DNA from: Opitutales bacterium
Lineage (GTDB): Bacteria; Verrucomicrobiota; Verrucomicrobiia; Opitutales; Oceanipulchritudinaceae
DNA: 41,928 nt
Direction: 5' to 3'
Assembly: GCA_020831525.1 (NCBI GenBank)
Contig: JAFIGH010000039.1
Span: 1-41,928, forward strand
Shown: in pieces, positions 2,339-4,732 of the stretch
Numbering within the stretch: the stretch's first letter is position 1
Layout: every line of letters starts with the position of its first letter
Made by a program: the position numbers and the translations under genes
The notes under the pieces: generated by a model
The model's database searches: none
Seen by the model: only the letters and a program-made list of their open reading frames with translations
What the model was told of the DNA's origin: nothing

Positions 2339-3478
2339 TCAGCGCGCGGGGACGAGGCGTGGCAAGCTGGCGTCGCTCTCCTCGAGGTCTTCGTCGGTGG
2401 CTTCCTCGGTCTGGACGGGGCTGACGGGCTGGAAGAGGTCGTCGCCGGGGAGGGGGCGGACGATTTCGAGGGGCTCGTCGTCCGGGCGTTTGGCGATCCG
2501 CACGTTGACCTCACGGTTCTCGCCGTCGCGGGCGACGCGCACTTGCACATACTGGCCGACGCGCGTGTAGAACATGGCGTTGCGCAAGTCGTCGAGGGAA
2601 CGGATGGTGTAGTCGCCGATCCGGCGGAGGACGTCGCCGGGGAGCAGGCCGGCCTCGCGCGCCGGGTTGTCGGTGATGGCGGCGATAATGATGCGCGAGC
2701 CGTCGCTGACGGAGCTTTCCTCGCGCACCTCGAAGCCGATCCAACCGCGCGTGACCTCCCCGGCGGCGAGCAGGTCTTCGCGGATGCGGAGGACGGCGCG
2801 CGCCGGGATAATATAGGTGGCCCCCACTTCGGGAACGGAGACGACATTCACACCGAGGAGTCGACCGTTGAGGTCTAGGTAGGCAGAGCCGCCGTCGCCG
2901 GGAGAGCCTGCCACGGAAGTGCGCAGGTATTTGCAGGGGAAGAGGCGACCGCCGAACCGGCTCTCGAACCCTGTGATCATACCCAGCTCCGGGGTGGGTT
3001 CGAATTCGAGGGGCATGCTCAGCCGGACGAGCAGGGTGCCGACCGGCGGCATGTCGGTGGTGTCGACGAGGGAGAGAAAGCGGAAGTTGCGCGGGAGGGT
3101 GTTGAGGCGCAGAAGCCCGATGTTGGCCACGGGATCGACCCCCACAACATCGGCGGAGTAAGAGACACCGTCGTGCTCGGCCCAAACGCGGATGGGTTTG
3201 CCCTCACGCAGCGGATTCTGCACGATATTGGTGTTGGTGACAACGTAGCCCTCGCGGCTGATGAAAAATCCGGTGCCGATAAACACCTGCGGGGTGTCCT
3301 CGTCCTCCATCGCCTCGTAGACCGCCTTGACCCGCACGAGGGCGGAGCGGTTTTCCTCGTAGATTTCAACGATCCGCCTCTGGAGGCTGAGGAAGTCGCT
3401 GCCGGCAGCCTGTGCCGCGAGCGAGGCGAGGATCAGAGCGACGACAAACCGGCGCCATCGGATGCACAGCGTCGTCAT
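2339..3478 (-). CDS. HtrA/DegP-like protein, trypsin fold plus PDZ, catalytic residues lost
   Basis: This 379-residue protein has an N-terminal signal peptide (about residues 11-26, ending AAQAAGS), a trypsin-like domain (about 45-235) and one PDZ domain (about 243-330). Active HtrA proteases carry VTNxH, D(I/L)A and GNSGG. Here the matching positions read VTNTN (N84 for His), ANIGLL (N119 for Asp) and GDGGS (G196 for Ser). All three are changed, so it is predicted to be a periplasmic pseudoprotease that binds peptides or misfolded proteins without cutting them. It is the last gene of a sigma factor / putative anti-sigma / htrA-like set, 15 bases after the anti-sigma gene. A stress-sensing or chaperone role is inferred. 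The family assignment is secure; the loss of activity is inferred from sequence. Confidence 0.88.
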   Translation of the reverse strand: MTTLCIRWRRFVVALILASLAAQAAGSDFLSLQRRIVEIYEENRSALVRVKAVYEAMEDEDTPQVFIGTGFFISREGYVVTNTNIVQNPLREGKPIRVWAEHDGVSYSADVVGVDPVANIGLLRLNTLPRNFRFLSLVDTTDMPPVGTLLVRLSMPLEFEPTPELGMITGFESRFGGRLFPCKYLRTSVAGSPGDGGSAYLDLNGRLLGVNVVSVPEVGATYIIPARAVLRIREDLLAAGEVTRGWIGFEVREESSVSDGSRIIIAAITDNPAREAGLLPGDVLRRIGDYTIRSLDDLRNAMFYTRVGQYVQVRVARDGENREVNVRIAKRPDDEPLEIVRPLPGDDLFQPVSPVQTEEATDEDLEESDASLPRLVPAR

Positions 3479-3493: not shown

Positions 3494-4075
3494 TCAGAAG
3501 TGCCGCATGCGCGCGGAGCTGGCTGTGCCCACGCGGGATGCCGCCTCCGCGATGGGTTCGGCCACATAATGGACGGCACCGTCACGCGCGACCGAATGGA
3601 TGGACGGCGTGTAGAGCACTTTGCGGTAGTGCGTCCGCTCGGAGGACATCGAAATCGTCTCGTCGACAAACCGGTTGCGCGCCGGAGAATCACCGGAGAA
3701 CGCCTCCGCCGAAACCACGTTTTCGCGGGCCGAAGCCATCGCGAACTCGAGGGCGGAAGCGGGTGCGAACTCAAGCTCCGCCGCCATCGGGGAGGCAGCT
3801 GCCGCAGCCGCGGGCGCATCGCCCGTGCGTCCGGGATCGGCGAGGACAAAGAACGCGAGGTATGCCGCCGCCGCCGTCGGTGCTAAAACATAAACCGCGC
3901 GGCGCAGTGACCGCGCCCAAACGGCCCACGGGGACGGGCGTTCCACCAGCTTCTGCAACCGCCGGGTGTGCAATGCCTTGTCGAACGAGTCCCAGAATTC
4001 CGGCGATGGTTGCTCGGCGCGCTTCAATTGAAGGAGCTTCTCGAGCGTTACGGGTGACGGATCTTTTTTCGGCAT
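3494..4075 (-). CDS. Putative anti-sigma factor, single-pass membrane protein
   Basis: The 193-residue product has a charged, helical N-terminal part (LEKLLQLKRAEQPSPEFW then RRLQKL) expected in the cytoplasm. One membrane helix lies at about residues 60-79 (VYVLAPTAAAAYLAFFVLA), followed by an Ala-rich exported part of about 110 residues. No zinc-binding HxxxCxxC motif is present, so it is not a ZAS-type anti-sigma factor. The role is inferred from topology and position: it lies 15 bases after the ECF sigma gene and before an HtrA-like gene, the order seen in rpoE-rseA-type operons. An unrelated membrane-anchored protein is possible. Confidence 0.6.
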   Translation of the reverse strand: MPKKDPSPVTLEKLLQLKRAEQPSPEFWDSFDKALHTRRLQKLVERPSPWAVWARSLRRAVYVLAPTAAAAYLAFFVLADPGRTGDAPAAAAAASPMAAELEFAPASALEFAMASARENVVSAEAFSGDSPARNRFVDETISMSSERTHYRKVLYTPSIHSVARDGAVHYVAEPIAEAASRVGTASSARMRHF

Positions 4076-4090
4076 GCGGAGAAAATTGAA

Positions 4091-4732
4091 TTAACGGATG
4101 TAGTCCTGAAGGTAGGACTGCAGTTGCTGCTTCGCGTAGTGCAACCGGGACCGAACCGTCCCGACCGAACAATTCATGATCTCGGAGATCTCCTGATGAC
4201 TCAGGCCTTCGATCTCAAAAAGCACGACCACAGTCCTATGTTTGGGAGACAGTTTCTGCAGGGCCTCGTTCAATCTTTCCTGCAGCTCCCGGACGAGCGC
4301 TCCCTTTTCCGTGCGGGTCTTCACGGAAAGAGCCTCAATGATCTCGCTGCTGCTCGCCTCGTCGTTGATGTTCTCCAAACTGAAGAAACGGCGGAGGCGG
4401 TTCTTCTTCAGCTGGCTGAGGGTGGTATTGACCGCGATGCGGTAAAGCCAAGTGAAAAAGGAGGATTTGCCCCGGAACCGCCCGATGGAGGAAAAGGCCT
4501 TGATGAAGGCATCCTGCGTAAGATCGGCAGCGTCCTCGCGGTTGGAGGTGAGATTGTAGATGATGGAGAACAGCCGTTCGCGGTATTTCACCACGAGACG
4601 GTCAAAGGCGGCCACGTCGCCGCCCTGCACGCGCTGAACGAGGACGGCGTCCTCGCTGGCTTCCGACCGCACCGGGCTATCCGCCGCGGCCGTTGTCGTC
4701 AGCTGTTCTGTCGCTGTTTGTGTGAGCGCCAT
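4091..4732 (-). CDS. ECF-family RNA polymerase sigma factor
   Basis: This 213-residue sigma-70 family factor directs RNA polymerase to a special promoter set. Region 2 covers about residues 40-110, with YRERLFSIIYNLTSN, the DAADLTQDAFIKAF helix and SFFTWLYRIAVN. Region 4 covers about 155-205, with the helix-turn-helix HQEISEIMNCSVGTVRSRLHYA. There is no region 1 or 3, as is usual for ECF factors. ATG at 4732 was chosen because conserved sequence begins soon after it; the frame stays open upstream to 5011 but would overlap coaC. A one-helix protein and an HtrA-like protein follow, consistent with envelope-stress control. No clear promoter was found in the 145-base gap before it. Confidence 0.9.
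   Translation of the reverse strand: MALTQTATEQLTTTAAADSPVRSEASEDAVLVQRVQGGDVAAFDRLVVKYRERLFSIIYNLTSNREDAADLTQDAFIKAFSSIGRFRGKSSFFTWLYRIAVNTTLSQLKKNRLRRFFSLENINDEASSSEIIEALSVKTRTEKGALVRELQERLNEALQKLSPKHRTVVVLFEIEGLSHQEISEIMNCSVGTVRSRLHYAKQQLQSYLQDYIR

Follow-up and report, generated by a model that had tools for sequence, protein, structure and literature searches.

The window analysed here was a 41,928-nucleotide stretch of DNA from an Opitutales bacterium (contig JAFIGH010000039.1). It carries three genes on one strand, separated by 15-bp gaps, in the operon order ECF sigma factor, membrane anti-sigma factor, and an HtrA-fold protein without a catalytic triad, called pseudo-HtrA here. Counts out of 119 in the feature list and below refer to the set of pseudo-HtrA sequences assembled in this study.

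2339..3478, minus strand: pseudo-HtrA, with a signal peptide (by eye), a trypsin-like domain lacking the triad, and one PDZ domain (reading frame, Pfam, alignment, structure model)
2498..2743, minus strand: PDZ domain of the pseudo-HtrA (Pfam)
2891..2893, minus strand: codon GGC for Gly196 at the catalytic Ser position (alignment; Ser in 16/119)
3122..3124, minus strand: codon AAC for Asn119 at the catalytic Asp position (alignment; Asp in 0/119)
3227..3229, minus strand: codon AAT for Asn84 at the catalytic His position (alignment; His in 0/119)
3494..4075, minus strand: membrane anti-sigma factor of 193 aa, with cytoplasmic helices, one membrane helix, and a tail predicted to be disordered (adjacency, model, profile)
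3497..3499, minus strand: codon TTC for the C-terminal Phe of the anti-sigma factor, which ends MRHF (sequence)
3842..3931, minus strand: long helix of the anti-sigma factor (residues 49-78), read as the membrane span (structure model)
4091..4732, minus strand: RpoE-like ECF sigma factor (TIGR02937; ATG at 4732 chosen, with a longer GTG form extending to 5011)

The pseudo-HtrA gene is an intact open reading frame of 379 aa that begins with ATG at 3478 and runs to 2339 on the minus strand; on the plus strand, a stop interrupts reading in the frame of 2339, and the first-pass annotation had named no strand. By eye, the signal peptide consists of a hydrophobic stretch (residues 11-21) followed by AQA (22-24). 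Pfam placed Trypsin_2 at residues 68-210 (50.4 bits; cut-off, 27.6) and PDZ_2 at 246-327 (56.3 bits; cut-off, 27), which is the domain order expected of HtrA/Deg (S1C) proteins, but the His-Asp-Ser triad of that family was missing (N84, N119, and G196). An AlphaFold2 model (40-row alignment; mean pLDDT, 88.6) was matched by Foldseek to DegP, DegQ, and DegS and was aligned with DegP chain 8f0a_A by VIA-align over 287 residues at 2.4 Å (Z, 30.7). Assignment to narrower families failed: scores lay below the NCBIfam cut-offs for DegS (TIGR02038, 77.1 bits versus 422.95) and MamO (NF040961, 31.5 bits versus 800), and Pfam at E values up to 0.1 returned only Trypsin_2 and PDZ families, with no MucB_RseB domain. 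We take residues 245-248 (GWIG) to be the loop by which PDZ domains of HtrAs engage the carboxylate of a C-terminus; of the 119 pseudo-HtrAs, 99% keep Gly248 and 87% keep Trp246.

Triad positions were placed by alignment to DegP-type PDB chains and to three canonical HtrAs with intact triads encoded in the same genome (L001, L002, and L003). With the catalytic position bracketed, the window protein reads VVTNT[N]IV against TNN[H]V, DPVA[N]IGLL against D..[D]LALL, and GD[G]GS against GN[S]GG. The first-pass annotation, made from the letters of this stretch, had described an intact frame with a trypsin fold and a PDZ domain and had named Asn84, Asn119, and Gly196 as the replacements for His, Asp, and Ser; Pfam and the model, with its DegP/DegQ/DegS fold, bore out the first description, and the alignment and codons confirmed the second.

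A search of 55 related genomes gave matches at E values up to 1e-20 in 49. The first alignment placed 41 loci (window included) in a new group with no His and no Asp at the catalytic positions (L053 was gapped at the His column), and its five canonical HtrAs kept all three triad residues. Class-wide (188 genomes) and phylum-wide (194 genomes) searches together yielded 79 further members, of which 78 were among the better matches in the class sample, with E values no higher than about 1e-53. The remaining member, L175, belongs to a genome outside the class, where the other 11 matches (L178 to L188) were canonical HtrAs. The resulting set of 119 sequences comprised these 79 and 40 order-level sequences, including the window and two congeners, and left out duplicates and the copy of the G005 relative, in which the gene is frameshifted and split over two frames. 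Loci L039 to L046 were metagenome-derived Opitutales, Puniceicoccales, and other Verrucomicrobia. At the His position, the 119 members have Ser (44), Thr (20), Asn (11), Asp (10), Ala (9), Glu (6), Gly (5), and others; at the Asp position, Asn (56), Gly (54), Ser (5), Arg (2), Thr (1), and Cys (1); and at the Ser position, Gly (50), Ser (16), Ile (14), Val (12), Ala (10), and others. The 14 canonical HtrAs aligned with them carry His in 14, Asp in 13 (Glu in one), and Ser in 14. The orthologue comparison proposed in the first-pass annotation accordingly found His and Asp absent in all 119 members and Ser left in 16.

A residual or non-standard protease working through other residues might draw on the Ser kept in those 16 members and on a His found at alignment column 184 in 61% of the set, but with His and Asp gone from the triad positions of every member, and with the window protein carrying Gly in place of the Ser and Tyr in column 184, we regard it as very improbable. 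An alternative triad was judged unlikely on the same alignment: among its Ser, Cys, and His columns, only the His of column 184 reached a conservation of at least 60%. Ser198, which the first-pass annotation had singled out as a possible nucleophile whose working triad would overturn its reading, is not conserved among the 119; to the extent that sequence can show, this objection fails. Ser74 is nearly invariant at the order level but lies within an FFIS strand common to DegP-type chains. Two residues after column 184 stands Arg186, present in 91% of the 119; the 14 canonical HtrAs have Gln in that column.

In a tree of 99 rows (80 pseudo-HtrAs and 19 canonical HtrAs; quick search with SH-aLRT, taking in about half of the class-level pseudo-HtrA rows), a branch with support of 100 separated all pseudo-HtrA rows from the canonical ones. 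The copies in two congeners show 94% and 92% identity, and dN/dS among the three congeners was 0.072, 0.070, and 0.096 (NG86). Because the triad is lost throughout the group, the members form one group in the tree, and dN/dS is low, the simplest reading of the sequences is a single ancient loss of the triad, after which the protein was kept. Chance decay would not leave congeners with dN/dS of 0.07 to 0.10 and a loss common to the whole ortholog group, and on this comparison local decay is ruled out. A pseudogene or an assembly error could be imagined, with the genome in 184 contigs and the G005 relative split over two frames, but both congeners share the frame and the replaced residues under the same low dN/dS, which rules this out as an explanation for the gene; we consider it next to impossible. 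The kept non-proteolytic role put forward in the first-pass annotation is well supported by a loss common to 119 members and by purifying selection.

The first gene of the operon scored 123.3 bits (long form) with the ECF model TIGR02937 (cut-off, 42.9), and both Sigma70_r2 and Sigma70_r4_2 of Pfam were above cut-off; with the RpoE equivalog TIGR02939 it scored 157.4, below the cut-off of 236.15. These sigma factors may, reportedly, be listed by gene context in the 2021 ECF classification of Casas-Pastor. A sigma gene lies upstream of the pseudo-HtrA in 113 of the 119 loci. At the order level, sigma and anti-sigma genes are directly upstream in 38/40, the exceptions being G024 (L047) and G051 (L056); of the class- and phylum-level loci, 75/79 have the sigma gene upstream, with L126, L134, and L164 at a contig edge and L144 (G182) not adjacent. 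None of 14 canonical HtrAs had a sigma neighbour within about 1.5 to 2.5 kb on either side. In G051 and G182, the sigma/anti-sigma pair occurs elsewhere in the genome, and the anti-sigma factor nonetheless ends in Phe; G024 has the pseudo-HtrA and gave no anti-sigma match at E values up to 0.001. Upstream of the sigma gene, GAAC-N15-18-GTC occurred in 6 of 36 regions (1.25 in shuffles) and TTGA-N13-CGT also in 6 of 36 (0.2 in shuffles), both weak signals picked from many patterns, and the other promoter patterns tried showed a smaller excess over shuffles. An RseP homologue is present in the genome.

The structure model of the middle gene product has helices at residues 11-44, the long helix at 49-78, and a tail without confident structure save for a weak helix at 107-117; the first helices are confident, the tail has a pLDDT of about 50, and the pTM is 0.33. 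The window protein matched no Pfam family at E values up to 0.5 and so could not be placed among zinc-finger (ZAS) anti-sigma factors. On the order-level set, Pfam gave only scattered weak matches, and no RseA domain appeared among the matches of 39 anti-sigma members, the window protein being without any family. Among 44 homologues scanned, zf-HC2 was found in eight (six above the Pfam cut-off, one level with it, and one just under), and the motif HxxxCxxC occurred in 0/38 order-level relatives and in 13/74 distinct class-level homologues. Profile-profile comparison (hhalign) of the order-level set with the zinc-finger set gave a probability of 98% (E value, 4.9e-14) over 49 residues following the finger. 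On the strength of this homology, the sigma adjacency, and the single membrane helix, the middle gene has the general characters of a membrane anti-sigma factor and is so designated.

These anti-sigma factors nearly always terminate in an aromatic residue: Phe or Tyr comes last in 109 of 112 relatives. At the order level, 29 of 38 end in Phe and 6 in Tyr, the other three ending in Lys, Met, and Asn; at the class level, where reading frames were chosen with models stripped of the last 15 residues, 69 end in Phe and 5 in Tyr (74/74). The L160 anti-sigma factor, which selection by position had overlooked, likewise has Phe as its last residue, like its counterpart in the window. Among controls, 22 of 259 other open reading frames, 0/38 sigma factors, and 0/114 HtrAs end in Phe or Tyr (control frames of at least 200 aa from 39 loci and the window, excluding one duplicate locus, two canonical-HtrA loci, and four duplicate HtrA rows). 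Entropy at position -1 was 0.68 bits, against 3.09 to 3.78 at positions -2 to -15. OMPs of the same genome likewise tend to end in Phe (12 of 14 loci examined, comprising two Omp85 matches and twelve of 24 TonB-receptor matches), and passages in PMC8103513 and PMC8545111 describe the PDZ domains of DegS and AlgW as binding the C-termini of unfolded OMPs.

We give an even chance to an envelope-stress switch of the sigma-E type, in which the dead HtrA would hold the anti-sigma tail with its PDZ domain and unfolded OMPs would compete for that domain; both this contact and the sense in which control runs are what we infer. At rest, the pseudo-HtrA PDZ domain would grip the C-terminal aromatic residue of the tail, and this grip would shield the tail from active proteases. 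Unfolded OMPs, mostly Phe-ended in this genome too, would compete for the PDZ domain, and the freed tail would be trimmed by an active HtrA or another protease. RseP would then cut the anti-sigma factor in the membrane, and the sigma factor would be released. Sensing (by the pseudo-HtrA) and cutting (by other proteases) would in this way be divided between two proteins. The fuller proposal, that the dead HtrA directly caps the aromatic C-terminus, that unfolded OMPs uncap it, and that this split of sensing from cutting is widespread in Verrucomicrobiota, we hold tentatively, at somewhat short of an even chance; that the anti-sigma factors mimic an OMP C-terminus, which is part of it, is likewise possible, with doubt slightly outweighing belief.

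The anti-sigma profile matched 163 of the 188 class genomes, outnumbering those with a pseudo-HtrA, and 40 loci were hand-picked from genomes in which even the best HtrA match fell short of those of the pseudo-HtrA group. In one family among them (f30; L225 to L229 and L242), the third gene is very divergent, with no aligned HtrA triad in any of the six loci; PDZ_2 was above cut-off in 6/6 and Trypsin_2 in 0/6 (weak in two), and all six anti-sigma factors end in Phe. A shielding role for the pseudo-HtrA is favoured because its gene occupies the place of rseB in the rpoE operon, as given in a passage of PMC8103513, because the protein cannot cut, and because in f30 it is the protease part that has eroded and the PDZ domain that has stayed. 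A recruiter role, by analogy with MamO and MamE and of opposite sign, would fit the same facts.

One form of recruitment is an adaptor: the pseudo-HtrA would bring the anti-sigma tail to an active HtrA, or form mixed trimers with one, and switch it on. MamO is described in part of PMC4794232 as activating MamE without a triad of its own, and the three HtrAs with intact triads (L001 to L003) are candidate partners in the genome. Against this, no second HtrA-like reading frame lies beside the gene in order-level loci (the frameshifted G005 copy aside), nor in class-level stretches at an E value of 1e-10, and we think an adaptor unlikely.

Other hand-picked loci bear on whether the pseudo-HtrA reads the tail at all. 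In family f14 (L205 to L217), 13/13 anti-sigma factors (reading frames of 281 to 339 aa, stop to stop) end in Phe, with no HtrA-like reading frame in the stretch; the next gene in six of these loci has, by eye, a fumarase-like start. Among the matches from a search of five f14 genomes, all those with a full trypsin domain keep the triad, and the rest are PDZ proteins. Since f14 keeps the Phe end without a pseudo-HtrA in the operon, another PDZ protein may read the aromatic tail there, or none does. L224 (family f39) also has an anti-sigma factor with Phe as its last residue, and its stretch yielded no HtrA; in 20 loci of other families without an HtrA-like reading frame in the stretch, Phe or Tyr ended the anti-sigma factor in 1/20. 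A sigma-factor tree of 88 rows shows three independent losses of the third gene, at most two of them accompanied by loss of the aromatic end (sign test, p 0.5, not significant), so that a link between the third gene and the aromatic end is suggestive. Two PDZ proteins without a Pfam trypsin domain, L252 (G135) and L259 (G050), each adjoin a canonical HtrA; with L255 and L259 together at G050:C1:2423421-2425711, these neighbours in two f14 genomes are possible pairs of an active and an inactive protein.

The f14 loci, together with further PDZ proteins in the genome (8 PDZ_2 matches) and the report, in part of PMC11642142, that inactive HtrA variants still protect cells, would suit a different division of labour. 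The pseudo-HtrA would be a holdase chaperone of the sigma regulon, placed in the operon for co-expression, and the tail would be read by another PDZ protein, for which an active HtrA, RseP, and a tail-specific protease are candidates. The nearly universal sigma neighbour speaks against this, as do the scarcity of aromatic ends outside f14 in loci without the third gene (the same 1/20) and the erosion in f30 of the protease part while the PDZ domain stays, and we rate it as rather unlikely, if worth keeping in view. The first-pass annotation had offered a peptide-binding sensor or a chaperone; with the operon context and the aromatic anti-sigma end, a sensor seems the better guess, and a chaperone is still a possible one.

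The switch proposed above, with the pseudo-HtrA holding the anti-sigma tail, resembles the RpoE/RseA/DegS/RseP system of E. coli and the MucA/AlgW system of Pseudomonas in its ECF sigma factor, membrane anti-sigma factor, one-PDZ HtrA fold, and RseP homologue. It departs from them in two respects: the HtrA-fold protein is encoded together with the sigma factor and has no triad, and the aromatic C-terminal residue is that of the anti-sigma factor itself, in which no RseA domain was found. RseB/MucB is a periplasmic rpoE-operon product that guards the anti-sigma tail, according to a passage of PMC8103513; the same role is proposed here for the pseudo-HtrA, but its fold is HtrA plus PDZ, with no RseB domain by Pfam. 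MamO, in which Thr replaces Ser and metal is bound (as stated in part of PMC4794232), and the inactive MamE copies of magnetotactic bacteria are likewise HtrA-fold pseudoproteases with a non-proteolytic job. A passage of PMC8545111 presents MucE of Pseudomonas as a periplasmic protein with a C-terminal WVF, and it is this tail that the HtrA AlgW recognises through its PDZ domain. MucE, however, activates a working protease, whereas here the C-terminal tail belongs to the anti-sigma factor.

No title in the open-access literature, among the matches listed, described an anti-sigma operon that includes a pseudo-HtrA, or a circuit of this sort from Verrucomicrobiota, and passages of three reviews (PMC11642142, PMC8103513, and PMC6411480) gave no description of one. 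We take the parts to be of known kinds and the combination to be a variant of the sigma-E type of switch. In the E. coli sigma-E pathway, the protease DegS both senses and cuts. A large bacterial group instead appears to run a circuit of the sigma-E kind with a non-cutting DegS-like protein, kept class-wide, and with an anti-sigma factor that appears to carry an OMP-like C-terminal aromatic residue. If true, this would make PDZ sensing separable from catalysis, would assign a role to a large number of proteins that domain models count as proteases, and would offer a simple peptide-binding test of envelope-stress sensing outside Proteobacteria.

On the plus strand of the window, positions 678-2105 hold a 475-aa open reading frame with a TTG start, which had no Pfam or NCBIfam match and no counterpart beside the operon in order-level loci; its product contains HELHHVYQ, by eye a zincin-like HExxH motif.
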